Source: Sphingorhabdus sp. EL138 (lineage in GTDB: Bacteria; Pseudomonadota; Alphaproteobacteria; Sphingomonadales; Sphingomonadaceae). From it: a stretch of 64,000 nucleotides of DNA. Within the stretch, counting starts at the first letter, position 1. The number at the start of each line of letters is the position of its first letter. The stretch spans positions 1-64,000 of the forward strand of contig NZ_CAMCWY010000010.1 of the NCBI RefSeq assembly GCF_945882965.1, given 5' to 3'. Shown piece by piece: positions 41,508-62,450 of the stretch. Below the pieces are notes generated by a model that saw only the letters and a program-made list of their open reading frames with translations, searched no databases and had not been told where the DNA came from. A program made the translations under genes and the position numbers.

Positions 41508-42566
41508 CTATGCGGCTAATGCGGCAGAATTACCTGCTTTTGTAACGCCGTTCACAAATTGGTCCGTGCATTTGTCCCAGCAAAATTGGGCTCCGTAGTT
41601 TGCGGCGTCGGTACGACTGAGCGAAAGCGCCCCATTGATTGCTTCGGCTAGATCGGGCTTGAGGCAACCAGCCGCGCGGTCTAACGTGCCATACGGCCCG
41701 CGACCCTCGCTACCGATAATGTCCAATGGACCTTGAACGGGATAGCCGGCCACCGGAACGCCCGTTGCCAGCGCCTCAAGCATGACAAGTCCAAATGTAT
41801 CGGTCTTGCTTGGAAATACGAACACATCGGCAGAGGCGTAAATACTGGCAAGCTCAGCGCCATGACGCGTCCCAAGAAAGACGGCGTCAGGATATCGCGC
41901 TTGAAGATGCGCGCGGGCAGGGCCGTCGCCGACGATGACCTTCGTTCCCGGGACATCGGCGTCAAGAAACGCTTCCAAATTCTTTTCTACGGCCACGCGT
42001 CCGACTGACAACATGATCGGCTTTGTAAGATGCTGTAAGATTGGATGGCTGGGCTGATCGGGATGGAACACGGCATGATCAATTCCACGCGACCACAGCT
42101 GTGTAGGCTTTATGCCGCGGCCTTCCAACTCAGCCCGCAGGCTTTCTGTCGCCGTCAGAACCGCGCGCGACCCCTTGTGGAATATGCGCATAATGGGCCA
42201 GATGAAGTCCGGCGAAAGCCGCGTGCGTGCGGCAACATATTCGGGAAACCGGGTATGAAAAGCCGTGGTAAATGGGACATCGTGCTTCATGCACCATGCG
42301 CGCGCGCTCCAGCCGATGGGGCCTTCGGTTGAGATATGGACGATGTCTGGCCGGAATGTACCGAGCGCCTTGCGCACACCGAAACGCGGCGCAAGTGCCA
42401 ATCGGATTTCTGGATAGCCGGGGCAAGGAATGGTCATGAATCTGTCTGGTGCAACAACTTCAACTGCATGTCCGCGGGCTTTCAGGCGGCTTATCGTTTC
42501 GGTTAACGTGCGGACAACGCCGTTGACTTGTGGTGCCCAAGCGTCCGTTGCGATGGCGAGCCTCAT
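41508..42566 (-). CDS. agt: GT4-family glycosyltransferase, probably Agt-type glycolipid synthase
   Basis: A 352-aa GT-B glycosyltransferase with the N-terminal acceptor motif MRLAIATDAWAPQVNGVVRT and the C-terminal donor site SKTDTFGLVMLEALATGVPV. It overlaps the upstream metallophosphoesterase gene by four bases (ATGA), so they form one transcript. In rhizobia and marine alphaproteobacteria the same pair, PlcP plus Agt, replaces phospholipids by glycosyl-diacylglycerols under phosphate starvation. That is the function proposed here, by analogy. An LPS or general mannosyltransferase role is the alternative. Confidence 0.8.
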   Translation of the reverse strand: MRLAIATDAWAPQVNGVVRTLTETISRLKARGHAVEVVAPDRFMTIPCPGYPEIRLALAPRFGVRKALGTFRPDIVHISTEGPIGWSARAWCMKHDVPFTTAFHTRFPEYVAARTRLSPDFIWPIMRIFHKGSRAVLTATESLRAELEGRGIKPTQLWSRGIDHAVFHPDQPSHPILQHLTKPIMLSVGRVAVEKNLEAFLDADVPGTKVIVGDGPARAHLQARYPDAVFLGTRHGAELASIYASADVFVFPSKTDTFGLVMLEALATGVPVAGYPVQGPLDIIGSEGRGPYGTLDRAAGCLKPDLAEAINGALSLSRTDAANYGAQFCWDKCTDQFVNGVTKAGNSAALAA

Positions 42567-43456
42567 GCTTCGACAGCCACTTTCTTCGTTGTGCGGTCGC
42601 GTACATGGGCTGCCCAGTCAATGATGGACATGCTGCCATCCTTGGCTTCCGCCAACGCGGTGCAGCTTTCAACCCAATCACCGTCATTATAGTAAGTGAT
42701 GGATCCAAATTGGCGAATTTCGGCGCAATGGATATGACCGCAAACTACACCCTCGACGCCGCGCTGCAACGCTTCGCGCGCAACAACTTCTTCATATTGC
42801 CCAATAAATTGGACCGCATTTTTAACACGCTTTTTTAGGTAAGATGATAGCGACCAATAAGGCATGTTCAATCTGCGCCGGACGGCATTGAGGACGATAT
42901 TGGCTCGCAACAGCAATGTATAAGCTTGATCACCCAAAAAAGCGAGCCAGCGCGCATACAGAACAATGCCATCAAAAGCATCGCCATGCGTGACAAGCAG
43001 TTTGCGCCCGTCAGCTGTGGTGTGAATCGCCTCCAACTGGACTTCTACGCCGCCAAAGCTGAGGCCAGTATAGTCACGGAACATCTCGTCATGGTTGCCG
43101 GGAATGTAAATAACGCGGGTGCCCCGATGCGCCATTTTCAATACACGGCGAATGACTTCATTATGTTGGTCCGGCCAGTACCAGCCTTTACGCAGTCGCC
43201 AACCATCAACAATATCGCCAACCAGATACAGCGTCTCGCACTCAATGGAATGCAGAAAATCGCACAACAAATCAGCCTGACAACCTGCAGTGCCAAGATG
43301 GATGTCCGATATCCACACCGTGCGCAGTTTCATCTTTGGCTGGAAGCTCCGCGGCTCGGGCTTATCAAACCAGACCGGCAGCTTTGGTTTGTTATTATCC
43401 TGCTCAAGGCGTGGCGCGTCAATTGCGTCCGTTTCACTAAATACTGTATGTGTCAT
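42563..43456 (-). CDS. plcP: calcineurin-like metallophosphoesterase, probably PlcP-type phospholipase C
   Basis: 297 aa. Five metal-site motifs of the LpxH-like superfamily are present: SDIHLGT, LVGDIVDGW, IPGNHDEMF, VTHGDAFDG and CGHIHCAE. There is an extra N-terminal segment of about 45 residues. The automatic name would be UDP-2,3-diacylglucosamine diphosphatase. The four-base overlap with a GT4 glycosyltransferase, the PHO-box-like array upstream (43511-43539) and the phosphate-related neighbourhood favour PlcP, which converts phospholipids to diacylglycerol. The family is clear and the substrate is inferred. Confidence 0.8.
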   Translation of the reverse strand: MTHTVFSETDAIDAPRLEQDNNKPKLPVWFDKPEPRSFQPKMKLRTVWISDIHLGTAGCQADLLCDFLHSIECETLYLVGDIVDGWRLRKGWYWPDQHNEVIRRVLKMAHRGTRVIYIPGNHDEMFRDYTGLSFGGVEVQLEAIHTTADGRKLLVTHGDAFDGIVLYARWLAFLGDQAYTLLLRANIVLNAVRRRLNMPYWSLSSYLKKRVKNAVQFIGQYEEVVAREALQRGVEGVVCGHIHCAEIRQFGSITYYNDGDWVESCTALAEAKDGSMSIIDWAAHVRDRTTKKVAVEA

Positions 43457-43510
43457 CTGCTTTTACCCCCACCAGATGCGTTTAGAACCTGTTTGGCGTA
43501 GATGGCTGAT

Positions 43511-43539
43511 GGGTCAGGCGCATTTCAGAACGATGACAG
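43511..43539 (-). promoter_or_regulatory. PHO-box-like array upstream of plcP
   Basis: On the minus strand CTGTCAT (43533-43539), CTGAAAT (43522-43528) and CTGACCC (43511-43517) follow each other at exactly 11-base spacing. The first matches the 7-bp PhoB half-site and the others match 5 of 7. The array ends about 55 bp before the plcP start codon. Confidence 0.6.
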
Positions 43540-43570
43540 TTTTCTTGCGATCGATCTTATGCAGGCGCGG

Positions 43571-44905
43571 TTATTTGATGGCGGGAACCTCTGCATCCGG
43601 CAGCGTCAATCTCATGGCTTTGGCAAGTGTGGGGGCAATTGCGCGCATGTCGATTTCGTCCAAATTGCGGCCTTTTTGAACGCTTGCGCCCATAATCATG
43701 AAGCTGGAGCGCATGAACGGCATGTCGGGAAAATAACCATGCATGCCTTTACTGCCCGACGGGCTCACCAAAGGCGCGGCCGCGCCTTTGAAATTGCCAG
43801 CATAGGCATTCGGGGCAAAGCCAACGTAAAAGCTTGCCTGCGGATTCGCTCCGTACCCGGCGATCTCCGATGTAGTGGCGATCTGGGCGATGCCATTTTT
43901 AGGGTCGGCTTTTAACTGCTCCAATAGTTCTGAGACGCGCGCGCGTAACGCGGGATTGGATGGCCGCTTCAAAACGATTGCTGACGATCCGCCCGAATTC
44001 CACGGACTGGCTTCCCAGTCCTTGATTTTGCCGTTGGCGTCGAGGACAATCAAGCCAGCGTCAATGAATGCCCGATAGAGATTGACTTCGGTATCGACCT
44101 TTGAAAAGCCATGGTCGGAAACAACGGCGATGAAGCTGTCAGGCCGGGCTACCAATTGTGCTGCGATGATCTTGCCCACCACCGCGTCAATCCGTTTAAG
44201 AACCGCATGCGCAGCCGCCGTATCGGGACCTTGTTCATGTTGTTCATGGTCAAGCGCCGTCAGATAGATCGTCGTGAAATACGGTTTCTCACGCGCAATG
44301 AGCGCCGTTGCGAACCGGCCACGGTTTTCATCACCTTCTATGTTTTCGTCAATGCCGGGGGCATATTCGCCCAATTGGCTTTCCAGGGATTTAATCAAAC
44401 TTGGCGTGGCAAGCGCCTTCACAAGCTTGACGTCATCTGAATGGCCCGTGCGCCAGATTTGCGGGATATTCCATTTTATTGCGTTGGTGTTGACACTGAC
44501 GGGCCAATGCACGTTGGCGGTGGTCAATCCTGCCTTCGCGGCGACATCCCACAAGGTCGGGACCTTAAAATCGCTGGCATAACAATACCAACCGCCCTGG
44601 TTGATTTGCAGAGGGTCGAAGCTGTTGTTGCTGACAATGCCATGCCGCGATGCGCTGACACCTGTGATCAGCGTCGCGTGGCTTGGGTAAGTTACCGTTG
44701 GCAGGATGCCGCGTACGCCTTGGGCATAGCTGCCTTGCGTGATGAAGCGTTTAAGGTTCGGGATGTATATCCCGCGTTCTTCCGCCTGTATAACGTCATC
44801 GGGTTGTAGCCCGTGGATGGAAATCAGCAGCACCGGCTCTGCCAAAGCCGCCGACGGTAGCGCAGCCACAAGAAGCGCGCTGCCGATTAATAGATTAAAC
44901 TTCAT
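43571..44905 (-). CDS. secreted nucleotide pyrophosphatase/phosphodiesterase (alkaline phosphatase superfamily)
   Basis: 444 aa with a signal peptide (LIGSALLVAALPSAALAEP). The nucleophile threonine is in GILPTVTYPSHATLITG. Metal ligands are expected in LISIHGL, TALDHEQHEQGP and VVSDHGFSKVD, as in the NPP family of the alkaline phosphatase superfamily. It probably releases phosphate from nucleotides or other diesters in the periplasm. Its start overlaps the stop of a decayed TonB-receptor gene (ATGA at 44902-44905), so the original operon promoter may be lost. Confidence 0.88.
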   Translation of the reverse strand: MKFNLLIGSALLVAALPSAALAEPVLLISIHGLQPDDVIQAEERGIYIPNLKRFITQGSYAQGVRGILPTVTYPSHATLITGVSASRHGIVSNNSFDPLQINQGGWYCYASDFKVPTLWDVAAKAGLTTANVHWPVSVNTNAIKWNIPQIWRTGHSDDVKLVKALATPSLIKSLESQLGEYAPGIDENIEGDENRGRFATALIAREKPYFTTIYLTALDHEQHEQGPDTAAAHAVLKRIDAVVGKIIAAQLVARPDSFIAVVSDHGFSKVDTEVNLYRAFIDAGLIVLDANGKIKDWEASPWNSGGSSAIVLKRPSNPALRARVSELLEQLKADPKNGIAQIATTSEIAGYGANPQASFYVGFAPNAYAGNFKGAAAPLVSPSGSKGMHGYFPDMPFMRSSFMIMGASVQKGRNLDEIDMRAIAPTLAKAMRLTLPDAEVPAIK

Positions 44906-45298
44906 GAGAAACCAGCCTTTAACGTTATGAAGAATTGCTGCGGTGCACCCGCCAGCAATGTTTGGTTGTCAGGGGCAACTTCGCCGCGCGCCGCTGCTAT
45001 TGCTTTGGCATAATCGGGGAAATAATTTGCATTGTCGTAACCAAGGCGCTTAATCATCTCAAGCAAGATATCCTGATAATTTTGCTGCGCGCGTTCAGTA
45101 TATAGAAAATAAGCAGGGAATTGTCCTTGCGAAGGTGGATTTATTAGGTTCTGACCCTAGGTGCGTTGTGCATTCGTCACCGTCGCCCCTCCACTTCTCG
45201 ACGTAATGATCGACGCCGGAGACATAATCGCAGGTGTCGCCAGCTTCGCCAAAATTGACGCGGCCAAAGGCCCGCATCATTTGACCTTTCCCAAGCGT
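44902..45298 (-). pseudogene. 3' remnant of a TonB-dependent receptor gene, frameshifted
   Basis: Reading on the minus strand, one frame gives MMRAFGRVNFGEAGDTCDYV and WRGDGDECTTHLG. The frame then changes at GGG (45155-45157) and continues QNLINPPSQGQFPAYFLYTE, then LLEMIKRLGYDNANYFPDYA. It ends APQQFFITLKAGFS at 44902. The last residues look like the final beta strand of an outer-membrane receptor. Dropping one G joins the two parts. The frame stops at 45299-45301 upstream and no plug domain is visible, so most of the gene is missing. Confidence 0.65.
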
Positions 45299-45437
45299 CT
45301 ACCAGCGAGGTGCATGGAGTAAAAGGCCTATGAAAACAGTTATTGTACTGTTTTCGTATTATAGTTTCGATAAGTCTATGTTGTTCTAGCAGCGTATTTT
45401 TCGACAATCCTCCTATCATTACACATTTTTGACATTT

Positions 45438-45477
45438 ATGTTGCAGTACTGTCATTAAAGTGCAACACTGACCGCAG
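45438..45477. promoter_or_regulatory. candidate Pho-type control region between receptor remnant and TPR ORF
   Basis: CTGTCAT (45449-45455) is followed 11 bases on by GTGCAAC. On the opposite strand CTGCAAC, ATGTCAA and GTGTAAT also follow at 11-base steps. A perfect inverted repeat, TGTTGCA (45439-45445) with TGCAACA (45461-45467), spans the box, and TTGACA lies at 45429-45434 without a good -10. The individual matches are weaker than in the two arrays downstream. Confidence 0.4.
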
Positions 45478-45493
45478 AAAAAGGAGAAACGCT

Positions 45494-45874
45494 ATGAAAA
45501 TGATGTTTTTGGGCACATTAATAGCTGGAACTTTGTCTGTCGCAGCACTGGCTAAGCCGTATGCAGTTGGCGAAATGTCCTAGCCAAAGAGCTCCGTTGA
45601 ATATGAGGCTCTTATGAGCGGCGATAATGCGCGCGCGGTGTCCCAAATCTTGGCGAGTGTCGAGCTCAGCAAGAACGATCTTCCAAAACTGCCTAATCTT
45701 GGACGCGCCTATGCACGAATGGGGCAGACCGAAAAAGCGGCTGCGTATTTTAAGGCAGCAATGCAGTCCCGTGAAAGCGTGGATTTGGTTTTAGCCGATG
45801 GCCGCGTGATGAACTCTAAGGTTGCAGCACGCGAAGCGATGGCTAGTCTGCAAACGCGCGTGGCTTCGCATTAA
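45494..45874 (+). pseudogene. small secreted TPR protein gene with an in-frame amber codon
   Basis: The ATG at 45494 has AAGGAG seven bases upstream and a signal peptide (MKMMFLGTLIAGTLSVAALA). Codon 30 is TAG (45581-45583). After it the same frame stays open to the TAA at 45872-45874, with TPR-like LPNLGRAYARMGQTEKAAAY and FKAAMQSRESVDLVLADG. A single CAG-to-TAG change would explain the interruption. The part after the stop could start at the ATG at 45614 but would lack export. A terminator follows. Confidence 0.7.
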
Positions 45875-45907: not shown

Positions 45908-45943
45908 AAAAAAATAGCGAGTCGGACAGGCTCGCTTTTTTTA
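45908..45943 (+). terminator. intrinsic terminator after the TPR ORF
   Basis: AGCGAG (45916-45921) pairs with CTCGCT (45931-45936). The stem is extended by flanking A and T runs and followed by a T tract. It closes the interrupted TPR transcription unit. Confidence 0.8.
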
Positions 45944-45985: not shown

Positions 45986-46047
45986 TTGTCATGTAGCTGA
46001 CACAAAATATTCTTCTAAATGCAACATTATGCGCACAACTCTGTCAT
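45986..46047 (+). promoter_or_regulatory. PHO-box array upstream of the lipoprotein gene
   Basis: TTGTCAT (45986-45992) and CTGACAC (45997-46003) are spaced 11 bp apart with GTAG between them and AAAA after. Staying in the same 11-bp register, weaker units lie at 46008, 46019 and 46030 (TGCGCAC), and a perfect CTGTCAT is at 46041-46047. The array ends 110 bp before the start at 46158. Register over six positions argues against chance. Confidence 0.7.
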
Positions 46048-46157
46048 AGGTGTCGCCTAGACGAATGTTGTCAACGGGTGGGGCCTATGTTGATTCGTCA
46101 CTGGTCCGTTGCAAGTGCCTATAATCGGGCAAGTCTTATTTGTTGCGGAGATTCAGA

Positions 46158-47789
46158 ATGTTAAACCCAAAATTGCGCGGGATTGTCTATGCTACGGCAG
46201 CTGCGGCTCTTGTCACTGGTTGTGGCGCAGACGACATCGCGTCGCCCGGCACCGGTGGTAACATCACCATCAACAACCCAGCCGCTCCTCCTCCTCCGCC
46301 GCCACCGCCGCCGCCATCATTGGTTACGGCTGCTGGCGCGTGTCCTTCGATTGCCGACCCACAGGGTTTGGCTAACGCTGGAACGATTTCTGGCCCAACC
46401 GGTACATATCGCGTTTGCCAGCTGCCAAGCCTTATAAAGGTGTCGAGCACCTTACCAAAGCTTCCTGGCGTGCTTTATTCGATGAATGGACGCGTTAACG
46501 TCGGATGCGACGGTGGCTTCGCCGCGCCAACAGTCGGCTCGCCTTACACTTCGACGACCGTTGGGTGTACCTCGACGCCACTCACCGCCGACACTAATGT
46601 CACCTTGACAATCAATCCAGGCGTAATTCTTTACGGTACAACTGGTCAGTCTTGGCTTGCAGTAAATCGTGGTAACAAAATCTCGGCTGTTGGCACTGCA
46701 AGCCTACCGATTATCTTCACCAGCCAAGACAATGTTGCCGGTTTTAATACTGACGCATCGCAAGGTCAGTGGGGCGGCGTTGTGTTGTTGGGCCGCGGAA
46801 TTACGACGGATTGCCTTACTGGGACTGTCGCTCTAAACACTTGCGAGCGTGATACTGAGGGCGCCGCAGATAAGGCCCTTTATGGTGGAACAAACAACAG
46901 CTACAACGCTGGCTCAATGAGCTTTGTTCAAATCCGTTACTCGGGCTTTGTTCTTGGACAAAATAAGGAATTGCAGGCGCTCACGACCGGCAGTATTGGC
47001 ACAGGAACGATCCTGAACAATATTCAATCGCACAACAGCTCCGATGATGGCGTTGAATTCTTCGGTGGCGCCGTCAACATGAAAAATTATGTTTCAACCG
47101 GTGCAGACGATGACAGCCTTGATATCGACACCGGCGCTGAAGCGAATATTCAATTTGCTTTGCTTATTCAGCGAGCTGGCAGGGGCGATGCTTTGATGGA
47201 GTTCGATAGCAACGGCGCTGAAGCGGACTTACCGCGGAGTATAATGCGGATTGTAAACTTTACTGCTTTGCAGTCACAGTCGTCGTCAGATAACGACTCC
47301 AATGATCTGGCCTCTACATTGTTCCGTGGAAACTCGGACACGACCCTGATAAATGGCATCATTGCTACACCAAATAACGAATGTATTCGTATGAATGGTT
47401 CTGGCACTACGCCGGCTACGCTTACCGCGCGCTCGGTGGTGTTGCAGTGCAACGCAACTAAGTTTTTGGGTTCGGGGTCCTATAACGCTACACAGGTAGG
47501 GACGTTCTTTGGCACAGGCTCAAACAACAACAATGATGCCTTCACGACGAGCTTCTCATCGCTGTTCATCAACGGCGCGAATGAAACAGCAATCGTGGCT
47601 ACAAACCCAACCACGTTCGCTAATTTCTCGTCAACTGTCCAATCCTTCTTTACAGCTACAAATTATGTTGGTGCCGTTAAGGATGGGACTGCCGGTTCCG
47701 CTTGGTACGCTGGCTGGACTTGCAACAGTTCCACCGCTACTTTGGGTACTAGCGTGACTGGCCTTTGCACCTCGCTGCCTACATACTAA
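46158..47789 (+). CDS. beta-helix-type lipoprotein, candidate T2SS substrate (ElpS-like)
   Basis: 543 aa with a lipobox: residues 9-21 end in AAALVTG and are followed by Cys22. A linker with ten consecutive prolines (AAPPPPPPPPPP) leads to an Asn/Ser/Gly/Thr-rich body with repeated short strands and the acidic turns SSDDGVEFFGGAVN and GADDDSLDIDTG, resembling a right-handed parallel beta-helix. The ATG at 46158 has GCGGAG upstream; a TTG at 46140 was rejected. It is followed by a TonB receptor and the T2SS operon. The Caulobacter lipoprotein ElpS has the same context, so a secreted phosphate-starvation role is proposed. Confidence 0.72.
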   Translation: MLNPKLRGIVYATAAAALVTGCGADDIASPGTGGNITINNPAAPPPPPPPPPPSLVTAAGACPSIADPQGLANAGTISGPTGTYRVCQLPSLIKVSSTLPKLPGVLYSMNGRVNVGCDGGFAAPTVGSPYTSTTVGCTSTPLTADTNVTLTINPGVILYGTTGQSWLAVNRGNKISAVGTASLPIIFTSQDNVAGFNTDASQGQWGGVVLLGRGITTDCLTGTVALNTCERDTEGAADKALYGGTNNSYNAGSMSFVQIRYSGFVLGQNKELQALTTGSIGTGTILNNIQSHNSSDDGVEFFGGAVNMKNYVSTGADDDSLDIDTGAEANIQFALLIQRAGRGDALMEFDSNGAEADLPRSIMRIVNFTALQSQSSSDNDSNDLASTLFRGNSDTTLINGIIATPNNECIRMNGSGTTPATLTARSVVLQCNATKFLGSGSYNATQVGTFFGTGSNNNNDAFTTSFSSLFINGANETAIVATNPTTFANFSSTVQSFFTATNYVGAVKDGTAGSAWYAGWTCNSSTATLGTSVTGLCTSLPTY

Positions 47790-47806
47790 GCTGCGAGCCA
47801 TGATTT

Positions 47807-47845
47807 GGGTGGAGCGCGGCCGCATCGGCCCGCTCCACCCTTTTT
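47807..47845 (+). terminator. strong hairpin terminator/attenuator between lipoprotein and receptor genes
   Basis: GGGTGGAGCG (47807-47816) and CGCTCCACCC (47831-47840) form a perfect 10-bp stem followed by TTTTT. It lies within the 79 bp separating two same-strand genes, so it should reduce read-through into the receptor gene or protect the 3' end of the lipoprotein mRNA. Confidence 0.88.
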
Positions 47846-47868
47846 CAATAGGAAATAGGGAAATTCCA

Positions 47869-50541: not shown

Positions 50542-50564
50542 CTCATACAATTTTGTCTGATTAG

Positions 50565-50600
50565 CGGCGGCATGTTATAATCAACATGCCGCCGTTGTTT
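50565..50600 (+). terminator. intrinsic terminator after the TonB receptor gene
   Basis: CGGCGGCATGTT (50565-50576) pairs perfectly with AACATGCCGCCG (50583-50594) and is followed by TTGTTTT. It separates the receptor unit from the T2SS operon promoter region. Confidence 0.9.
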
Positions 50601-50628
50601 TATGTATCGTTAAAGCCACACGCTATGA

Positions 50629-50679
50629 CAGTCACAAAACTGTCATTTTAATTTCACTTTTAAGTCACAACGGTGTCTT
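50629..50679 (+). promoter_or_regulatory. five-unit PHO-box array upstream of gspC
   Basis: CAGTCAC (50629), CTGTCAT (50640), ATTTCAC (50651), AAGTCAC (50662) and GTGTCTT (50673) start exactly 11 bases apart. The spacers AAAA, TTTA and TTTT are AT-only and the last is AACG. This is the direct-repeat layout bound by tandem PhoB dimers. The array ends about 38 bp before the GTG start of gspC. Confidence 0.8.
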
Positions 50680-53722: not shown

Positions 53723-55278
53723 TGACAGTTTCGCAAGGAACGTTGGAACGACCGGGCGCGACTGGCGCAGAAACTGGCGCGCCCGTTACTGTTGCCCAGA
53801 TCACGCCATTGCTGGATCTGCCTTATGCCTTTGCTAAGGCGCACGGCCTGGTTTTGCGTCATGAGAGCAACGCTCGTTTAATCGTTGCCATGCGTGAAGG
53901 CGCAGATCCTCTTATGCTGCTTGAAGTGCGGCGCCATCTGGCGATGCCGTTCGATGTTGAGATAGCCGATAACCAGACCTTTGACCGGTATCTTTCCGAC
54001 CATTATGCGATGGACGGAAGTGCAGCGGCAATGGCGGGGTCGATAGGCCATAATGACGGCGATCTGTTATCCGATATGCTGCCAAGTGTCGATGATTTGC
54101 TCGACAGCGCTGATGACGCTCCGGTTATCCGGTTGATTAACGGCATCATAGCAGAGGCTGTGCGGCAAGGTGTTTCGGATATTCATATCGAACCTTATGA
54201 AACTGGTCTTGTTATACGCATGCGTGCCGATGGCGTGTTGCAGGAACGGCTTCGGCTCCCCGCCAATGTTGCGCCTGTGGTCGTCAGCCGTATCAAGGTA
54301 ATGGCGCGGCTCGACATTGCCGAACGCCGCATTCCGCAAGATGGCCGTATTGGCCTGTCGCTTGGTGGAAAGATGGTCGATGTGCGTGTGTCCACCTTGC
54401 CAAGCCGCGCTGGTGAGCGCGTCGTGATGCGTATTCTCGACAATGAAAATGCTGGGATTTCGCTCGATTTGCTGGGCATGTCTGAAGAGACGCTAAAAAT
54501 ATTGCGCGAAGCATTGGCTGAACCCAATGGTATTATTCTGGTCACTGGTCCGACGGGTTCGGGTAAGACCACCACTTTATACGCAGGTCTAAAGCGTCTG
54601 AACGACGGTTCCCGCAACATACTGACGGTTGAAGACCCCGTCGAATATGCGGTCGAAGGCATTGGCCAGACGCAGGTGAATGCGAAAGTAGGTATGACCT
54701 TTGCCGCTGGCCTACGCGCGATTTTGCGGCAGGATCCTGACGTCGTCATGGTCGGCGAAATCCGGGACCGTGAAACCGCCGATATTGCTGTGCAAGCGGC
54801 GCTTACCGGCCATTTGGTAATGACCACGGTGCACACAAATGATGCGCTTGGTGCAATTACGCGTATGCGCGATATGAAGGTTGAGCCTTTCTTGCTCGCC
54901 TCGACCCTGCGTGCTGTCATCGCGCAGCGGCTTGTGCGCCGCCTGTGTCCGCATTGCCGCCAAACAATGCAGGCCGACGGCAATGCAGCGTCGTTGCTTG
55001 GTTTTGACAAGGGCACGGCGGTTTATAAAGCCGTCGGTTGCCCTGAATGCAACAACACTGGCTATTTGGGCCGCATTGGCGTGTTTGAGGCTGTCCGTGT
55101 GGATGATACCATCCGCCGCTTGATCAATGACGGCGGCGATGAAGCCATATTGGCGCGACATGCTTTTGTGAACCAGCCTAATTTGAGTGCCGCTGCGCGT
55201 AAATTGGTGCGTAGCGGGGACACCACGCCAGAGGAGGCTATTCGCATTTCACGCCGTGAAGACATCGTTGATGCCTGA
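53722..55278 (+). CDS. gspE: type II secretion ATPase GspE
   Basis: Cytoplasmic hexameric motor, 518 aa. An N-terminal N1E-like domain is followed by the Asp box (SDIHIEPYETGLVIRMRADG), Walker A GPTGSGKTTTLYAGL near residues 274-288, and Walker B QDPDVVMVGEIRDRETAD near 335-352. The His box contains LVMTTVHTNDALGAITRM. A four-cysteine zinc domain is present (CPHCRQTMQ, GCPECNNTGYLGRIGVFE). Start and upstream stop overlap as TAATG. Confidence 0.97.
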   Translation: MTVSQGTLERPGATGAETGAPVTVAQITPLLDLPYAFAKAHGLVLRHESNARLIVAMREGADPLMLLEVRRHLAMPFDVEIADNQTFDRYLSDHYAMDGSAAAMAGSIGHNDGDLLSDMLPSVDDLLDSADDAPVIRLINGIIAEAVRQGVSDIHIEPYETGLVIRMRADGVLQERLRLPANVAPVVVSRIKVMARLDIAERRIPQDGRIGLSLGGKMVDVRVSTLPSRAGERVVMRILDNENAGISLDLLGMSEETLKILREALAEPNGIILVTGPTGSGKTTTLYAGLKRLNDGSRNILTVEDPVEYAVEGIGQTQVNAKVGMTFAAGLRAILRQDPDVVMVGEIRDRETADIAVQAALTGHLVMTTVHTNDALGAITRMRDMKVEPFLLASTLRAVIAQRLVRRLCPHCRQTMQADGNAASLLGFDKGTAVYKAVGCPECNNTGYLGRIGVFEAVRVDDTIRRLINDGGDEAILARHAFVNQPNLSAAARKLVRSGDTTPEEAIRISRREDIVDA

Positions 55279-56488
55279 ATTTGCTTATCACGCCATCGAC
55301 CCTGACGGGCGCGAGCGGCGCGGTCGGATATCTGCGGCGAATGATGATCTGGCACGCGAAGCATTGGTGTTGAAAAAACTGTATATTGTAAGCGTTGCGC
55401 CTGCCGAAGTGCGTGCACCGGTGTTTGCCAACCTGCCGCTAAAACGGCAGCCTCGGTTAAACGCAAAGCAACTGACATTGTTCACCCGGCAATTGTCTTC
55501 CTTGGCGCAAGTTTCGCCCTTGGAAGAGGCGTTGCGGACGATAAGTCGTCAAAGTGAGCAACCCCACGTGCGTGAGATATTGACAGCCGTTCACACAGGC
55601 GTCGTTGAAGGCCAGCGTTTGTCCGAATCTATGCGGCGCGAAAGCAGCAGCTTTCCACCTTTGTATCGCGCAATGATCGCCGCCGGGGAGGGCGCGGGCA
55701 CATTGCCGCTGATCACCGAACGGCTTGCTGTGCTTCTGGAACGGCAGGCGGAGATGCGGGGTAAGTTGATCGGTGCGCTGGCGTATCCGGCGATCCTGTC
55801 GTTCGTCGCGATCCTCGTTGTGATGGGGTTGATGGTGTCCGTCGTGCCGCGCGTGGTTGAACAATTCGACAATGTGGATCAGCAACTACCGCTGATAACG
55901 CGCATGGTGATTGGCATTTCGGCATTTTTGGCGAGCTATTACTGGGCGCTGATCATCGTTGCCGCGCTGGCTGCTTTGGGTTTTGCGCAAGCCTTAAAAC
56001 AGCCCGCCTTCCGTTTGGCTGTGGACCGCAATGTCTTGCGCATTCCGTTGCTTGGAAAGCTTTTGCGTAACCTGCATGCCGCACGCATGGCACGGACATT
56101 GGCGACAATGGTTGCAAGCCGCTTGCCCTTGTTGGAAGGCTTGCGCCTGACGGGCGGCACCATTCGCAATAAAGTGTTATCTGCGGCAAATGACGAGATC
56201 GTGGAATCCGTGCGTAGCGGGGGTAGCCTGTCCGGCGCGATGCGTAGCAGCGGGGTTTTTCCGCCTTTGCTCGTGTATCTGACGGCAAGCGGCGAGAGCG
56301 CAGGGCAATTGGATATCATGCTCGAACGTGCCGCCGAATATCTGGAACGCGAATTTGATACCTTTACCAGCACCGCTTTGTCGTTGCTTGAACCCTTGAT
56401 CATTGTCGCGATGGGCGGCGTGGTCGCTGTCATCATATTGGCAATATTGCTGCCTATCCTTCAACTCCAAAACCTTACGGGACTGTAG
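55271..56488 (+). CDS. gspF: type II secretion inner-membrane platform protein GspF
   Basis: 405 aa with two T2SF domains. The start MPEFAYHAIDPDGRERRGRI is typical, so the longer frame from 55187 was rejected. Three membrane helices are visible: LIGALAYPAILSFVAILVVM, then WALIIVAALAALGFAQALK, and the C-terminal LEPLIIVAMGGVVAVIILAI. Each half carries an LTLFTRQLSSLA or AARMARTLATMVAS type block. It overlaps gspE by eight bases. Confidence 0.96.
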   Translation: MPEFAYHAIDPDGRERRGRISAANDDLAREALVLKKLYIVSVAPAEVRAPVFANLPLKRQPRLNAKQLTLFTRQLSSLAQVSPLEEALRTISRQSEQPHVREILTAVHTGVVEGQRLSESMRRESSSFPPLYRAMIAAGEGAGTLPLITERLAVLLERQAEMRGKLIGALAYPAILSFVAILVVMGLMVSVVPRVVEQFDNVDQQLPLITRMVIGISAFLASYYWALIIVAALAALGFAQALKQPAFRLAVDRNVLRIPLLGKLLRNLHAARMARTLATMVASRLPLLEGLRLTGGTIRNKVLSAANDEIVESVRSGGSLSGAMRSSGVFPPLLVYLTASGESAGQLDIMLERAAEYLEREFDTFTSTALSLLEPLIIVAMGGVVAVIILAILLPILQLQNLTGL

Positions 56489-56490
56489 AC

Positions 56491-56964
56491 ATGCTCCGCC
56501 TATTTTTTACTCTTTTGACCGATACCCGTCGCGCCCCCGCCAGGTTCCGCCGCAAGGGCGTTAAGGCGCAACGCAACGGTTTCACCCTAGTTGAAATGAT
56601 GGTGACTTTATTTATTTTGGCGCTGCTGACAACGGTCGTGGCCATCAACGTGCTACCCAATCAGGACAAGGCCATGGTGCAAAAGGCACGGGCAGATATC
56701 GCCGTTTTGGGACAGGCACTGGAAACCTATCGCTTGGATAATTTGACCTACCCTGATGGAGGTGCTGGTTTGCAGGCGTTGGTGACGCCGCCGACGACCG
56801 GAGGGCGGAGTGAAGGCTATATCAAGAAACTGCCGATGGACCCTTGGAACCGCCCATATCAGTATAGCATGCCTGGAAAGAACGGCGCCTTTGATATCTA
56901 TTCGCTGGGTGCCGATGGCGCGCCTGGGGGTGAGAATGATAATGCCGACATTTACGGCGACTAA
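56491..56964 (+). CDS. gspG: major pseudopilin GspG
   Basis: 157 aa. The prepilin peptidase site is NG/FTLVEMMVTLFILALL, with the invariant Glu5 of the mature protein. The calcium-loop region (YRLDNLTYPDGGAGLQAL, SLGADGAPGGENDNADI) is intact. The leader of about 30 residues is long and starts with a hydrophobic patch (LRLFFTLL), whereas most leaders are shorter and basic. A TTG at 56515 would shorten it. Asparagine at -2 replaces the usual basic residue. Confidence 0.95.
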   Translation: MLRLFFTLLTDTRRAPARFRRKGVKAQRNGFTLVEMMVTLFILALLTTVVAINVLPNQDKAMVQKARADIAVLGQALETYRLDNLTYPDGGAGLQALVTPPTTGGRSEGYIKKLPMDPWNRPYQYSMPGKNGAFDIYSLGADGAPGGENDNADIYGD

Positions 56965-57430
56965 GCCGTCCGTCCGTAACATCGTTCAGGATAATGCGCG
57001 TGGCTTCAGCTTAGTGGAGCTTATGGTGGTATTGTTCATAATCGGCATTGCGAGCACGGCCGTTGTTATGGCCGTACGCTCGCCCGAGCGCGGTGTTCGG
57101 GATGAGGCGGAGCAATTTGCCGCCCGCGTTGCCGCCTTGCGCGATAATGCCATATTGCAATCGCGCACCATGGCGGTGACCGTGCGCCCGTCGGGCTATG
57201 GCTTTGAAACGCGTAATAATGGCAACTGGGTGCCGATGTCCGAGGCCCCATTTTCAGCAACCGACTGGAAAAGTGGCACAACGGTTCAGATGTCCGGCGC
57301 GCGGCAGATGCGTGTAGCCTTTGACAGCACGGGCCTGCCGTCAAGCGCCGCCGATATCGCAATCAAACATGACAATGTAACGGTCACGCTAAAGCTCGCC
57401 GCAACCGGGGACATTCGCGTTGTCCGTTAA
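56942..57430 (+). CDS. gspH: minor pseudopilin GspH
   Basis: 162 aa. The leader ends at ARG/FSLVELMVVLFIIGIASTAV, with Glu5 present. The body has EQFAARVAALRDNAILQSRT and GYGFETRNNGNWVPM, typical of GspH. The ATG at 56942 lies within the end of gspG (23-base overlap). The longer frame from 56810 is out-of-frame gspG sequence. It should sit near the pseudopilus tip. Confidence 0.92.
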   Translation: MPTFTATKPSVRNIVQDNARGFSLVELMVVLFIIGIASTAVVMAVRSPERGVRDEAEQFAARVAALRDNAILQSRTMAVTVRPSGYGFETRNNGNWVPMSEAPFSATDWKSGTTVQMSGARQMRVAFDSTGLPSSAADIAIKHDNVTVTLKLAATGDIRVVR

Positions 57431-57803
57431 GGCTTCATTGCCTCGCAATGGCTTCACGCTGCTGGAAATCATGGTTGCTTTGGCGATTTTCAGCCTTGCG
57501 GCGTTAGCGATGGTGCGCTTGCAGGGATATTCGGTACGCTCGACAGCCAATCTGGGCGATAGCAATATGGCATGGCAAGTGGCGCGCAACTTGGCCGTAG
57601 AAATATCGTCCAACCCCGCGCCGCCATCTCTGGGAGAAACGCGCGGCGAAGAATTAAACGGCGGTCAGAATTGGCAGTGGATGGCCACAACGCGCGCCAC
57701 CGATGACAGCCGTTTGGTGACTGTCGAGATCAACGTGGTCGGAACAGGCAACGCGGCACTCCGCAAGGCCCAGATGACGATAGCGAGGCCCATTGAACAA
57801 TGA
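57420..57803 (+). CDS. gspI: minor pseudopilin GspI
   Basis: 127 aa. The cleavage site is RNG/FTLLEIMVALAIFSLAAL with Glu5. The NMAWQVARNLAVEI segment is the GspI helix that packs against GspJ/GspK. The start is a TTG at 57420 within the end of gspH (11-base overlap), giving the short basic leader LSVKASLPRNG. It nucleates the tip complex with GspJ and GspK. Confidence 0.92.
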   Translation: MSVKASLPRNGFTLLEIMVALAIFSLAALAMVRLQGYSVRSTANLGDSNMAWQVARNLAVEISSNPAPPSLGETRGEELNGGQNWQWMATTRATDDSRLVTVEINVVGTGNAALRKAQMTIARPIEQ

Positions 57804-58444
57804 CCGAATTGCGAAAGTCAGAGGCCGGGTTTACGCTTATCGAATTGCTGGTGGCGCTTGCGATTTTTGCACTCATTTCAGTGGCTGGTGTCATGCTTTT
57901 GCGTTCCGGCAGCGATACCCAAATTGCCGTGAAAAAGCGTCTTGAAGAAATGGCATTGTCGCATCGCCTGGCCAATAGTTTGGAAGGCGACCTAGCCCAA
58001 GCGATCGCGCGGCCCGTGCGAGATCAATCCGGCGAACCTATTCCTGCCTTTACCCAAGGTGAGGCAAGCTTTCCCGGCGCGCTATTTGGCTTTGTCCGGG
58101 CCGGGTGGTCCAACTTTGATCGTGCGCCAAGGGCAGGACTGCAACGCGTGGCTTATGTGCTGGAAGGCGGGTCGCTTAAGCGGTTGAGTTGGCCCATGCT
58201 GGATGGATCCGCGCCCACAGACGCTGCGGTCTTGTTGGAGGATGTGACGTCTGCAGCGGTCGAATTTCGGGATGATACAGGCGCTTGGCGCGACGACTGG
58301 ACGGCGACCGATGCGGATGCTTTGCCGCGCGCTGTTGCCTTAAACGTCAATTTGGTCGGTAAGCCTTCCCAACGCATGCTTTTTCTGGTCGGTTCGCAAA
58401 CACGCGTTGCAGCGCCGAGCGTTGACACAGGCGCTGCAGAATGA
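57800..58444 (+). CDS. gspJ: minor pseudopilin GspJ
   Basis: 214 aa. The leader site is SEAG/FTLIELLVALAIFALISV with Glu5 present. GspJ-like blocks are LANSLEGDLAQAIARPVRD and VAYVLEGGSLKRLSWPML. Overlaps of four bases on both sides (ATGA at 57800 and 58441) show tight translational coupling. It is part of the tip complex. Confidence 0.93.
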   Translation: MTELRKSEAGFTLIELLVALAIFALISVAGVMLLRSGSDTQIAVKKRLEEMALSHRLANSLEGDLAQAIARPVRDQSGEPIPAFTQGEASFPGALFGFVRAGWSNFDRAPRAGLQRVAYVLEGGSLKRLSWPMLDGSAPTDAAVLLEDVTSAAVEFRDDTGAWRDDWTATDADALPRAVALNVNLVGKPSQRMLFLVGSQTRVAAPSVDTGAAE

Positions 58445-59427
58445 TGCAGCAAAAACCTTCAGAGCGCGGCGCGGCCTTGCTGTCTGTCTTGCTTATGGTT
58501 GCAGTGCTGGCGGTGATTGCGGCTACGACGCTTGACCGGCTTAGCTTGTCGAGCAAATTGTCTGCCAATGGCAACGTGCTTGCCCAAGCGCGCATGTTTA
58601 CCTACGCGACCGAGGCGATTGCCGCTGCGCGTATTGAGGACCTGGTTGCCCGCGATGTCGCGCAAACGACGTTAACGGGGGATTGGTTGGGGAAGGTACA
58701 AACTATTCCTATTCCTATCGGCTCTGCCAGGGCGTCCGTGCGGGATGCTGGCAATTGTTTTAATCTTAACAGCCTTGTGACCGAAATTGACGGCCGATAC
58801 TTGGCGAGTGCGACGGGGCAAGACCAGATGACGTCGTTGTTGGTGGTGTTGGGCACAAATGAAAACGCTGCTCGTGTTATTGCGGCGGCAGCAGCCGACT
58901 GGGCGGACAGCGACATCATGCCTTTGCCAAATGGCGTGGAGGATGATGGGTATCTTTCTGCGGCGACGCCTTATTTTACGGCGAACAGGCTGTATGTGCA
59001 TCCAAGCGAGCTGCGCGCGGTCAAGGGCGTAACCCCTGCTATCTATGCCACGTTGCAGGGTTGGATCTGCGCGCTGCCCGATCCGGTTTTATCGCCGTTG
59101 AATGTCAACACTTTGCTGCCCGAACAAGCGCCGTTGTTGGCCATGCTATTCCCGCCCGGCAAGATGAATTTGACCTTAGCGCGCAGCTATCTCGCCAAGC
59201 GGCCATCTAATGGCTATGGCAGCCTCATCCGATTCTGGGCGGCGCCTGAAATTGCCGCGCTGGAACCGTCTTCTCTGGTTCAAGGGCAGGTAAAACTGAC
59301 GAGCAATTACTTTCTTTTGAACACAAATGTGTCATTTGGCGAACTCAAGCTTTCCGGACAGTCGATGATTGTCGCGTCGCCTGCGCCTGCGCGCGTTATC
59401 TGGCGCAGTTGGGGGGAAGAGGAATGA
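58441..59427 (+). CDS. gspK: minor pseudopilin GspK
   Basis: 328 aa, the largest pseudopilin. The leader site is SERG/AALLSVLLMVAVLAVIA; there is no Glu5, as is normal for GspK. The inserted alpha domain is indicated by DWADSDIMPLPNGVEDDGYL and LSPLNVNTLLPEQAPLLAML. It caps the pseudopilus and regulates its length in studied systems. It overlaps gspL by four bases. Confidence 0.93.
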   Translation: MMQQKPSERGAALLSVLLMVAVLAVIAATTLDRLSLSSKLSANGNVLAQARMFTYATEAIAAARIEDLVARDVAQTTLTGDWLGKVQTIPIPIGSARASVRDAGNCFNLNSLVTEIDGRYLASATGQDQMTSLLVVLGTNENAARVIAAAAADWADSDIMPLPNGVEDDGYLSAATPYFTANRLYVHPSELRAVKGVTPAIYATLQGWICALPDPVLSPLNVNTLLPEQAPLLAMLFPPGKMNLTLARSYLAKRPSNGYGSLIRFWAAPEIAALEPSSLVQGQVKLTSNYFLLNTNVSFGELKLSGQSMIVASPAPARVIWRSWGEEE

Positions 59428-60509
59428 CATTGGTCATTGCGCGGTTCCCAACATCTGAGCAGGACGACCCGTCGGTGTTTCGAGTCATTGAGGGCGTTTG
59501 GCAGGATGCTGGCGTACTTTCCAACTTCGTGCCGACGGTTGACGATGTGACTGTTATGGCAGTGGTCGCGCCTGAAGATGTTCGGTGTCACTGGTTCACG
59601 CTCCCCGATCTGCAAGGGCGTCAGGCCGAAACGGTGGCGAAACTGCGTGCAGCCGAACAATCGCTTGGCCTTGTGCACATCAGCGCTGGTACAGATTATG
59701 ACGACGTTATTGCCACAGCGACAATCGCGCCGGAGGTAATGCAGCGCGGGTTGGATAGGCTTGGCGCGCGCGGGCTAAACCCCGACATTGTCCTGCCCTT
59801 TGCATCGTTGGTGCGTATCCATTCAGATGGCGTGTTCAGGGCCGAAATGGACGGCCTGTCCGTCCTGCGCGGCGCGCAATTTGCTATACCTGACGAAGCC
59901 ATGTTGCGCGATTTGTTCATTGGCGACGCGCAGATAGAAAATATGGATAGCGACTCCATCCGGTCCATGCTGCTTTCTGCAAGCGCTGCGCCATTGCTCA
60001 ATTTGCGTGAAGGCAACTTCGCAAAGCGAGATCAGGCGGTTTGGGTGACCGCAGAGCAAAAGATTTGGGTAAGGCGGCTTTTGGCCGCGCTTCTTATCGT
60101 GACAATGATGCTCACTATTGCGACCTTGGCAAAATATTGGACTGCAACTGCGTCTGAAAATGACGCCGCATTGGCTGCGGCACAGAAGATTGATCCGGCT
60201 ATTCAGGACATTGATCAGGCCGAAAGCATGCTCGCCGCGTCGCTTAATCGTCAGGGCAAAACGCAAAGCCGCTTTGCGCCGCTTTCCGCTGCTGTGTGGC
60301 GCAGTGTGAAGGCTGCGCCGAATGTGTCCGTGCGGGAATTACGATATACGCCGGACGGTATTTTGACCGTTGTTCTGGCGGCACCGACCGCCGATAACAT
60401 CAACAATGCGCTTGTGACCATTCAGCAAGACGGGTTCCGCATTACCGCAACCGCGCGGCAGGACACAACGGGTGCCACATTGGTTGATATGACAGTGAGG
60501 ATGCCATGA
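59424..60509 (+). CDS. gspL: type II secretion protein GspL
   Basis: 361 aa. An N-terminal actin-like cytoplasmic domain that binds GspE is followed by one membrane helix (LLAALLIVTMMLTIATLAKY, about residues 218-237) and a ferredoxin-like periplasmic domain (PNVSVRELRYTPDGILTVVL). The ATG at 59424 overlaps the gspK stop; an ATG at 59409 lies five codons upstream. The overlaps put it in the same translational chain as gspM. Confidence 0.9.
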   Translation: MTLVIARFPTSEQDDPSVFRVIEGVWQDAGVLSNFVPTVDDVTVMAVVAPEDVRCHWFTLPDLQGRQAETVAKLRAAEQSLGLVHISAGTDYDDVIATATIAPEVMQRGLDRLGARGLNPDIVLPFASLVRIHSDGVFRAEMDGLSVLRGAQFAIPDEAMLRDLFIGDAQIENMDSDSIRSMLLSASAAPLLNLREGNFAKRDQAVWVTAEQKIWVRRLLAALLIVTMMLTIATLAKYWTATASENDAALAAAQKIDPAIQDIDQAESMLAASLNRQGKTQSRFAPLSAAVWRSVKAAPNVSVRELRYTPDGILTVVLAAPTADNINNALVTIQQDGFRITATARQDTTGATLVDMTVRMP

Positions 60510-60985
60510 TAGCGGCGTTACGCTTATGGTTTGCTGCCCTAACGCGGCGCGAGCAATGGCTCGTTGGTGTGGCGGGCGCACTGACCGCTTTTGTGGTGGC
60601 GATTTTCGGAATGTTACTACCCGTTCTGGCAACCATTGATCAGGCAAAGCTAGATCATGACGTGGCGGTCCAACGGCGCGGGCGGATAATCGCCACGGTC
60701 GATGCCGCGCAGAAGCAGCAGACGGGGTCGCGCTCTGCAGTGACGGCGGATATTGACCAACTGATTACCCAAAATGCGGCGGAACAGGGTTTCGATCTCG
60801 TCAAATCGCCCAATAAAGCAGCAGGACAAATCAGCTTCCGGATTGACCAAGCGCGTGCGCCAGCATTGCTTGCTTGGCTGACGGAGCTTGAGGGCCAGAA
60901 TGTTGCTGTGCGCAGTGTCGCCTTACGTACCGGCGCGAACAGCACCGTAACGGTTGAGGCGCAGTTGCAGATGAACGCGCCATGA
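60506..60985 (+). CDS. gspM: type II secretion protein GspM
   Basis: 159 aa. A short cytoplasmic N-terminus with the typical REQWLVGVAGALTAFVVAIF membrane helix (about residues 14-33) is followed by a periplasmic ferredoxin-like domain ending LLAWLTELEGQNVAVRSVAL. It pairs with GspL in the inner-membrane platform. It overlaps both neighbours by four bases. Confidence 0.88.
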   Translation: MIAALRLWFAALTRREQWLVGVAGALTAFVVAIFGMLLPVLATIDQAKLDHDVAVQRRGRIIATVDAAQKQQTGSRSAVTADIDQLITQNAAEQGFDLVKSPNKAAGQISFRIDQARAPALLAWLTELEGQNVAVRSVALRTGANSTVTVEAQLQMNAP

Positions 60986-61677
60986 AACGGCGCTTCGCCA
61001 TTGCTTCGGTCGTAGCGCTCGCTTTTGCTGCGATACTGTTCATGCCCTTGCGGACTATCGTCGCTGGGGACGGGGTAACTGCACGCAAGGTTGATGGTAT
61101 CATTTGGGATGGGTCCATCCGCGACCTGCGCCTTGGCAAAATGCCAGTAGGCGATGTCAATGCACGTTTGTTGTTATCCCCATTGTTTATGGGCCGGGCA
61201 GAGATATTGCTGTCACGGGGCAACGCGCAATTTGTGCCTGGCATAAACGGGTCTGTATCGCGCGGCATTAGTGGTGTGTCGGTTAACAATTTGTCCGCTA
61301 CTTTGCGCGTAGGTGCCCTGTTCGCGCCGTTTCCTGCTGAAAATATTCAGTTTGAAGGTTTTTCTGCGCGCTTTGCCGCTGGCCGGTGCATGGATGCCAG
61401 CGGGCAAGTCCGGCTTACCCTGTCGGAAACGCTACCCGGACTTAACTTACAAAATGGGATGCTTGGTAAACCGCGCTGCGACGGTGCGCAATTATTGCTG
61501 CCTTTGGTCAGCCAATCCGGGATGGAGCGGGCGGACATTCGTTTGTCGGCAGACGGATCTTATATCATAGCAGTTACGCTCGATGCCGACCAGGGCGACC
61601 AAGCGGCAGTTTTAAATATCGCGGGTTTCCGGCCAGTTGCGCGGGGGTACCGCTTGGTCCAAAAGGGCCGGTTCTGA
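60982..61677 (+). CDS. gspN: type II secretion protein GspN
   Basis: 231 aa with an N-terminal membrane anchor (FAIASVVALAFAAILFMPLR) and a periplasmic part. GspN-like blocks are ARKVDGIIWDGSIRDLRLGK and the cysteine-containing FAAGRCMDASGQVRLTL. GspN is present only in some T2SS and its role is unclear. It ends 17 bases before the gspO start used here. Confidence 0.85.
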   Translation: MKRRFAIASVVALAFAAILFMPLRTIVAGDGVTARKVDGIIWDGSIRDLRLGKMPVGDVNARLLLSPLFMGRAEILLSRGNAQFVPGINGSVSRGISGVSVNNLSATLRVGALFAPFPAENIQFEGFSARFAAGRCMDASGQVRLTLSETLPGLNLQNGMLGKPRCDGAQLLLPLVSQSGMERADIRLSADGSYIIAVTLDADQGDQAAVLNIAGFRPVARGYRLVQKGRF

Positions 61678-61694
61678 GCGCGTTTCTGGCGTCA

Positions 61695-62450
61695 TTGGGC
61701 GATAATTTATTCGCTTTGCCCTTTTGGTATCAACTGATGCTGGCTATGCTATTCGGCGCAATCTGGGGCAGCTTTGTTGCCGCCTTATGCAGTCGCTGGC
61801 CACGTGGGGAATTGGTGTCGGACGGACGGTCGCATTGTGACCATTGCCAGACCACGCTTGGGGCTAAAGACCTTGTTCCCATATTGTCGTATCTATGGCT
61901 TCGCGGCAAATGCCGATATTGTGGTCAATTCATAGGAATAAGCGCGCTTTACATTGAACTTGTCTCCGCCGCGACTGGCCTATGTGCAGTCTTATTCTTG
62001 TCCGGTGGTCAGGCAGTGGCGGCGGCGGTGTTCGGTTGGGTACTGCTACCGCTCGTCATCCTCGATTATCAGAAACTATGGTTGCCTAATCGATTGGTCT
62101 TGATGTTGTCGTTAGCAGGCGTTTGCGCTGGTCCGTTTCTGACACCCGCGATTGACTGGCCTGACCGCATTTTGGGATGTATTTTCGGATTTCTGGCATT
62201 GGAAGCGATCCGGCAAACCTTTCGAAGGCTGCGTCAGGTGGACGGCATGGGTGGAGGCGACCCCAAATTGTTCGGAGCCATTGGCCTCTGGCTCGGTTGG
62301 CAGGGCCTGCCGATGACTTTACTTTTGGCAACTATCTTTGGGTTTCTGTTTGTTGCGGGTGCCTATGCGCTATCTAAAAAAACCGCCCGACATCTGCCGT
62401 TCGGGGCGTATATGGGGACAGCTGCTTTTACGATTGTCTTGCTGGTTTAG
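61695..62450 (+). CDS. gspO: prepilin peptidase / N-methyltransferase
   Basis: About 251 aa, processing the pseudopilins encoded upstream. The N-terminal methylase region has the zinc pairs HCDHCQTTLG and CRYCGQ. The aspartic protease residues are in VILDYQKLWLPN and GMGGGDPKLFGAIG. About seven membrane helices are present. The frame has only a TTG (61695). A CTG at 61674, overlapping the gspN stop as CTGA, would give LSAFLASLGDNLF and is a possible but rare start. Confidence 0.93.
   Translation: MGDNLFALPFWYQLMLAMLFGAIWGSFVAALCSRWPRGELVSDGRSHCDHCQTTLGAKDLVPILSYLWLRGKCRYCGQFIGISALYIELVSAATGLCAVLFLSGGQAVAAAVFGWVLLPLVILDYQKLWLPNRLVLMLSLAGVCAGPFLTPAIDWPDRILGCIFGFLALEAIRQTFRRLRQVDGMGGGDPKLFGAIGLWLGWQGLPMTLLLATIFGFLFVAGAYALSKKTARHLPFGAYMGTAAFTIVLLV

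Follow-up and report, generated by a model that had tools for sequence, protein, structure and literature searches.

The window analyzed here is a stretch of 64,000 nucleotides from Sphingorhabdus sp. EL138 (contig NZ_CAMCWY010000010.1, positions 1 to 64,000), whose draft genome amounts to 2.36 Mb in 38 contigs and whose GspD groups with Sphingorhabdus records, at 95% to that of locus L123. Pfam and NCBIfam scans showed that agt, plcP, pde, elpS, the TonB-dependent receptor gene TBDR1 and the type II secretion system (T2SS) genes gspC to gspO adjoin one another at positions 41508–62450, which confirmed the contiguity proposed in a preliminary description of this DNA made from the sequence alone. 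The genes agt, plcP and pde are read leftward, while elpS, TBDR1, gspC to gspN and gspO are read rightward. The features of this island are the following:

41508–42566, minus strand: agt, a GT4 glycosyltransferase gene that follows plcP in the plcP-agt pair (Pfam Glyco_transf_4 / Glyco_trans_1_4)
42563–43456, minus strand: plcP, LpxH-like calcineurin-type phosphoesterase, probable phospholipase C of lipid remodeling (Pfam Metallophos)
43511–43550, minus strand: PHO-box array before plcP (strongest part 43511–43539)
43571–44905, minus strand: pde, NPP-type (type I) phosphodiesterase with a signal-peptide-like start (Pfam Phosphodiest)
44908–45298, minus strand: TBDR2 remnant, a second TonB receptor gene with internal deletions (tblastn and blastn against L133)
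45418–45446, minus strand: PHO-box array of the (former) TBDR2-pde operon
45438–45466, plus strand: overlapping divergent PHO-box array for the small gene
45494–45874, plus strand: gene for a small TPR-like protein, 126 codons, with an in-frame TAG at 45581–45583 (sequence; tblastn against L133)
45916–45936, plus strand: terminator-like hairpin after the small gene
45986–46047, plus strand: PHO-box array before elpS
46140–47789, plus strand: elpS, 549-residue lipoprotein
47800–50541, plus strand: TBDR1, TonB-dependent receptor, probable ElpS partner (Pfam; receptor type matches elpS type)
50562–50597, plus strand: terminator-like hairpin between TBDR1 and gspC (15-pair stem and T tail)
50629–50679, plus strand: five-unit PHO-box array before gspC
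50718–62450, plus strand: gspC to gspN and the prepilin peptidase gene gspO, type II secretion operon (Pfam/NCBIfam)

The secretion operon encodes GspC to GspN and a prepilin peptidase, with a weak match for GspL (26.8 bits for a cut-off of 29.6). The hairpins at 45916–45936 and 50562–50597 may separate the rightward units; the stem of the latter is also visible in aligned relatives, and terminator-like hairpins number 26 in the whole stretch for 12.9 expected.

Direct scans found four intergenic regions of the island in which CTGTCAT-like 7-bp units follow one another every 11 bp. The spacing given in the preliminary description was thus correct, while its count of three regions was one short. 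The array before elpS, with six in-phase unit positions of uneven quality, is the weakest of the four. A plain 18-bp pattern with three mismatches returned 162 genome-wide matches against 83 for the reversed pattern and discriminated too weakly by itself; the analysis therefore relied on tandem scores and on a matrix trained on pstS sites. The pstS gene was present in 51 of the 59 family genomes in which it was sought, and upstream DNA of 30 loci was used; the unit matrix was trained on 20 of 29 pstS upstreams (score at least 16.5), the genome under study being left out. As the training sites were chosen with the CTGTCAT consensus, the matrix is independent of the island and not of the consensus, against which spacing controls and shuffles serve as guards.

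Scoring of 160 kb of the own genome, an enriched background whose stretches were chosen partly for pattern hits, ranked the three-unit sites of gspC (20.2) and of the genome's own pstS (20.1) first. They were followed by an alkaline phosphatase (18.8), an overlapping gspC register (18.3), plcP (16.0) and pde (15.9), the next site reaching 14.9. The ranking suggested as a check in the preliminary description therefore places gspC level with pstS and plcP and pde just below the alkaline phosphatase, with elpS the weakest. The five-unit gspC array, at 27.4, is the best in the 160 kb scored, and other spacings, apart from a spacing of 10, gave best scores of 13.1–15.4. In dinucleotide shuffles (n = 1000 each), the three-unit score was reached 0 times for plcP, once for pde, 14 times for elpS and 0 times for gspC, and the four-unit score 0, 3, 3 and 0 times, respectively; the five-unit elpS score was reached by 0 of 1000. 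Among the shuffle controls, the own pstS and the alkaline phosphatase gave 0 at three units, and three other stretches of the window gave 321, 496 and 921. The pstS model listed 17 matches across the 64-kb window, and the top five all fell within intergenic regions of the island. A genome-wide search with a model of the same 20 sites, of which the ranking alone was used given its poor E-values, listed two matches, gspC and then pstS. Overall, the arrays consist of tandem 7-bp units at 11-bp spacing that score with known pst sites, least well before elpS.

The genome also encodes the corresponding regulatory system. The phoB and phoU genes, above their family cut-offs, share an operon with genes that resemble pst and with one for a PhoR-like kinase (284 bits, under the 334 cut-off), pstS, C, A and B being named from their open reading frames by eye. 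Elsewhere in this genome, a PhoA-type alkaline phosphatase gene (L037:2636–4204, minus strand) carries a three-unit PHO box upstream, and its product is a possible T2SS substrate.

The 11-bp register, whose presence in orthologous loci had been left to be checked, recurs in relatives. From an ElpS search of named genomes, 80 of 230 relatives were taken as loci, and an a-priori score of at least 17 was counted, window included; the loci are related and the counts hence not independent. This score was reached at 11 bp by 16 of 19 plcP, 39 of 81 elpS and 13 of 24 gspC upstreams, versus 0–1 at each of eight other spacings (7–10 and 12–15). The locus L112 was dropped from the gspC count by an identity limit (37% gspC match). 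The pstS control behaved similarly, with 16 of 30 upstreams reaching a three-unit score of 17 at 11 bp, one at 12 and none at 7–10 or 13–15. An alignment of ten loci shows the gspC array in register, some 80–90 bp from the start. PlcP orthologues of family genomes that lie away from elpS showed the same register, 14 of 18 exceeding the 95% background at 11 bp and 0 of 18 at either 10 or 12 bp; the background windows were drawn from these loci and themselves include PHO boxes, which makes these percentiles conservative.

These results argue for a cluster of PhoB-activated operons, a reading that is well supported in silico and to which we assign a probability of about 0.85. When phosphate is scarce, PhoR would phosphorylate PhoB, which would bind the tandem 11-bp-spaced PHO boxes at the four promoter regions and induce the adjoining operons. 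On the leftward side, plcP-agt would be switched on: PlcP would strip phosphate headgroups off phospholipids and Agt would glycosylate the resulting diacylglycerol, yielding glycolipids and freeing membrane phosphate. On the rightward side, elpS-TBDR1 would supply a surface lipoprotein and a receptor acting as a matched pair in the capture and import of what may be a phosphorus-containing ligand, while gspC to gspO would provide a secretion machine whose substrates would be hydrolases and which would help release ElpS. A third arm consists of an exported phosphodiesterase and a TonB receptor that belongs to it; its genes are open in relatives and decaying here. The preliminary description had regarded the whole as one PhoB block; an array at each operon and the pstS-level ranking agree with this, whereas the four promoter regions and the hairpins between the rightward units speak for several operons rather than one.

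Several observations weigh against PhoB control of the whole island. Two spacing-10 sites of the 160 kb, at 17.4 and 19.9, score above plcP and pde. The genome-wide model matches have E-values of 0.57 and 0.71, with 150 of 300 candidates scored, and the plcP, pde, elpS and alkaline phosphatase sites are absent from that listing. The 13 gspC cases all belong to the 19 loci of window-like kind, the window being one of them, and none to the five others, although the gspC upstreams of L087 and L128 score 19.1 and 18.3 with the matrix; only 3 of 20 window-like elpS upstreams reach 17, and the kinship of the loci limits what all these counts can carry. In three Caulobacter-type loci, the 300 bp before elpS hold no array (L089, −3.5; L090, 3.0; L112, 0.7), and the gspC upstreams of two of them, located by partial alignments, reach 16.5 in L089 and 6.1 in L090. 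In Caulobacter, gspE and gspL mRNA rose 1.7-fold in poor medium while mGFP-GspL levels were similar, and the receptor cc0171 was reported to be constitutive (PMC2996285), at odds with PMC11208175. Finally, plcP and elpS are not neighbors in 48 of the 51 family genomes that have both.

One alternative is partial control, in which PhoB drives plcP-agt and gsp, while elpS-TBDR1 depends mainly on a different promoter and the pde arm is defunct. The weakness of the elpS array in the window, where 14 of the shuffles met its three-unit score, its absence from the Caulobacter-type loci, the constitutive cc0171 and a pde deprived of a conserved aspartate and of its receptor gene would all fit. It is nevertheless improbable, given the six in-phase positions before elpS with a five-unit score that no shuffle equaled, the 39 of 81 elpS upstreams with a score of at least 17 at 11 bp, where no other spacing gives more than one, and the induction of ElpS by phosphate starvation in Caulobacter (PMC2996285).

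Regarding the leftward pair, agt adjoins plcP in 18 of 18 plcP-holding loci, and the GT4 glycosyltransferase gene lies directly downstream of plcP, as expected for Agt. PlcP displays the motifs DIH, GDIVD, GNHD and GHIH, which we take to be calcineurin-type metal-binding motifs. At sites invariant in 18 relatives, the window shows one change of its own in plcP and none in agt. Identity with LpxH was considered and rejected: the protein scores far below the cut-offs of the NCBIfam LpxH families, and neither LpxC nor LpxI was matched in the own genome, which appears to have no lipid A pathway, so that a role in lipid A synthesis is improbable for the LpxH-like protein. The protein is a probable phospholipase C of lipid remodeling, assigned by family, motifs and neighborhood. 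The GT4 protein matches many NCBIfam GT4 families, all below cut-off, and does not contain the E-x7-E motif, having an aspartate (D256) at that place.

Such matches, the missing motif and an assignment of this kind would also suit a pair of envelope-sugar genes unrelated to lipid remodeling. We consider this very unlikely, since LpxC and LpxI are unmatched in the genome, arrays recur upstream of plcP, and plcP followed directly by agt is the order published as type 2, known from Erythrobacter, SAR11 and type II methanotrophs (PMC4796936; PMC9239053), with Pho boxes noted in plcP clusters (PMC4796936). The plcP-agt genes are also described as required for a low-phosphate glycolipid (PMC9239053).

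Regulators of the OmpR family commonly recognize direct repeats, and the genome holds three further OmpR-type regulators at 145–190 bits with the PhoB model; that one of these binds the arrays and places the genes outside the phosphate response is nonetheless scarcely credible, as only 1 of 14 matches passes the PhoB cut-off, the pstS-derived matrix ranks the island sites with the own pstS and alkaline phosphatase, and the gene content is phosphate-related.

PhoB control thus remains the preferred reading, within which the phosphodiesterase arm requires separate treatment. The product had been described as a secreted phosphodiesterase; its family (Phosphodiest) and signal-peptide-like start agree, while the conserved metal-ligand residues are incomplete and the arm is in decay. 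Residue 31 is a histidine in the window, where 8 of 8 relatives and PDB chain 2gsn align the aspartate of the SIDG motif, presumably a metal-binding residue. The TBDR2 remnant and the small gene with its in-frame stop were absent from the preliminary description. In relatives, TBDR2 adjoins pde as an open gene for 737–750 residues (L065, L125, L127, L130, L133, L134, L136 and L140), its identity having been checked against Pfam with one copy (L133). All eight pde-keeping loci have TBDR2, and six loci with plcP and without pde are also without TBDR2; in L124 and L135, TBDR2 is present and the sequence ends before the place of pde. The TPR matches of the small gene are below cut-off in the open L123 copy. 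At sites invariant in the eight relatives, pde shows 13 window-only changes. Faster evolution of the protein is partly supported: 28–29 changes were counted against 12 with two outgroups (p 0.01–0.02) and 25 against 14 with a third (p 0.11), and gspD also deviates with two outgroups. The wrecked TBDR2, the TAG in the small gene, Asp31His and the 13 window-only changes suggest that pde is probably losing its function in this genome and that its product may be inactive here, unless errors of the draft mislead. At the place of the pde/plcP side in Sphingorhabdus wooponensis, locus L142 has an open reading frame (8236–9534, minus strand) that resembles a phage-type integrase by eye, which suggests an insertion or replacement.

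The ElpS protein is 60% identical over residues 13–548 to a Caulobacter vibrioides record (L090) and 59–60% across L090 and L112. Like the cc0170-type lipoprotein, it carries a lipobox (LVTGC) and is encoded beside a TonB receptor and a T2SS; its true start is likely the ATG at 46158. Neither Pfam nor a sequence search of the PDB gave a match. A model from a 50-sequence alignment (predicted local distance difference test score, pLDDT, 87.4) predicts a right-handed parallel beta-helix. Foldseek alone gave no match at an E-value of 0.001 or better; a second-look aligner gave tailspike, alginate lyase/epimerase and polygalacturonase folds as best matches (Z about 18–21.5, 7–13% identity). The fold assignment is based on this aligner and on the model, and similarity of fold is no evidence of function. 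An alkaline phosphatase, considered for ElpS, was discarded since the model is a beta-helix instead, and no phosphatase stands among the 50 fold matches listed. Ten invariant acidic residues (D302, D303, E306, D324, D325, D328, D330, D350, E354 and D356) recur at about one helix turn in the model and could form a metal or active site.

Comparison of 19 window-like loci revealed two types of ElpS. The window type is shared by L064, L065, L066 and L125 (77–84%), while 15 loci (L121–L124, L126, L127, L130, L132–L137, L140 and L142) have the other type, at 56–60%. The receptor type matches the ElpS type in 18 of 18 loci with both genes (88–90% or 57–59%). The flanks disagree: GspD of L064 is 98% identical to that of L126 and GspD of L125 97% to that of L122, L126 and L122 being of the other type. 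In the ElpS tree, the window type forms one clade (support 100/99), as it does in a quick receptor tree (100), whereas the GspD tree scatters it and needs four type changes; a single clade is rejected there by the approximately unbiased test (p = 9.6e-95), for a group named from ElpS identity after the table had been seen. Between L064 and L126, DNA identity passes from 90–98% to 37–73% and back to 90–96%, except for one 59% bin far left, the drop beginning just past the elpS leader/proline-linker codons and ending at the receptor stop. The reverse pattern, a similar cassette in less similar flanks, was observed for L125 or the window against L064. Several of these records are metagenome-assembled, and chimeras cannot be wholly excluded.

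Because the types are always matched yet scattered over the GspD tree, elpS and TBDR1 appear to have been swapped together on several occasions, which favors the view that ElpS and TBDR1 work as a pair. An ElpS-cc0171 interaction was suggested in 2010 from co-occurrence (PMC2996285), and matched exchange is the stronger evidence. At somewhat under even odds, we would extend this to a SusCD-like ElpS-receptor uptake complex that forms one specificity cassette in Sphingorhabdus-type bacteria, swapped by homologous recombination at the leader/proline linker and at the receptor stop/terminator while the PhoB-driven flanks stay fixed. If true, a phosphate-starvation uptake system changes its ligand or escapes phage, the drivers that we infer for the exchange, with its regulation unchanged.

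The island is a new arrangement of known modules, since the ElpS-TonB receptor-T2SS linkage, its link to phosphate and plcP-agt have already been published. Caulobacter ElpS is made under phosphate starvation and released in a T2SS-dependent manner, both ElpS and the T2SS operate at the surface, and linkage of ElpS with a TonB receptor and T2SS was named in Sphingomonas alaskensis, Hyphomonas and Xanthomonas (PMC2996285). The Caulobacter PhoB regulon is reported to include T2SS, TonB receptors, a nucleotide pyrophosphatase, a phosphodiesterase and a phospholipase C (PMC11208175). The idea of such a phosphate-linked block had thus not gone unnoticed, both the linkage and the regulon members being in print. 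In C. crescentus, elpS (cc0170), cc0171 and gspC-N follow in the same order as the three modules of the window (PMC2996285). The window differs in the plcP-agt and pde/second-receptor arm placed divergently alongside, in a gspC preceded by a hairpin of terminator type and then a PHO-box array of its own, and in gspO, which is read with gsp here and in the opposite direction in C. crescentus (PMC2996285). Linkage to ElpS and T2SS, a feature of the window, is not mentioned in the genomic-context section of PMC4796936, and PMC11208175 gives its regulon as categories, several of which the window unites in one contiguous block. In another phylum, the Flavobacterium PusCD and FI-cluster loci combine a low-phosphate surface lipoprotein, a TonB transporter and a periplasmic phosphodiesterase in a window-like manner; their lipoproteins, weakly homologous to pectate lyases/polygalacturonases and one of them beside a TonB transporter (PMC8115612), are likened to ElpS by description.

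Among the matches listed, literature searches found no publication on the island arrangement or on elpS cassette exchange. The additions of the present study are this exchange and the decaying arm. The island brings membrane phosphate recycling, T2SS and a putative surface uptake pair together in a single regulon block of sphingomonads that is defined by sequence. For ElpS, a phosphate-starvation protein hitherto unexplained, the analysis supplies a predicted fold and a partner with genetic support, and the ElpS/T2SS question becomes testable in named Sphingorhabdus strains with the locus.

A survey covered 99 family genomes, in most cases a single genome for each genus. It found ElpS in 68 and PlcP in 70, with both in 51; the one other genome of the same genus as the window had neither. 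The two genes lie within about 10 kb on one contig in three of these 51 (G000, the own genome, G050 and G030), and contig ends may hide a few more. Around the 80 named elpS loci, for which flanks of up to 10 kb were available, many of them cut by contig ends, gspC was found in 24 and plcP was within reach in 18. Twelve of these have the divergent order of the window, and six have another order with plcP-agt downstream of elpS-TBDR (L073, L079, L085, L088, L099 and L141), five of them Novosphingobium. The joint occurrence of plcP, agt, elpS, TBDR1 and gsp is repeated among related loci. The plcP-elpS linkage is thus confined to some lineages, yet exists in more than one form. Just past the end of agt, tRNA-Met and tRNA-Pro genes at 40975–41193 are a possible integration point for mobile elements.

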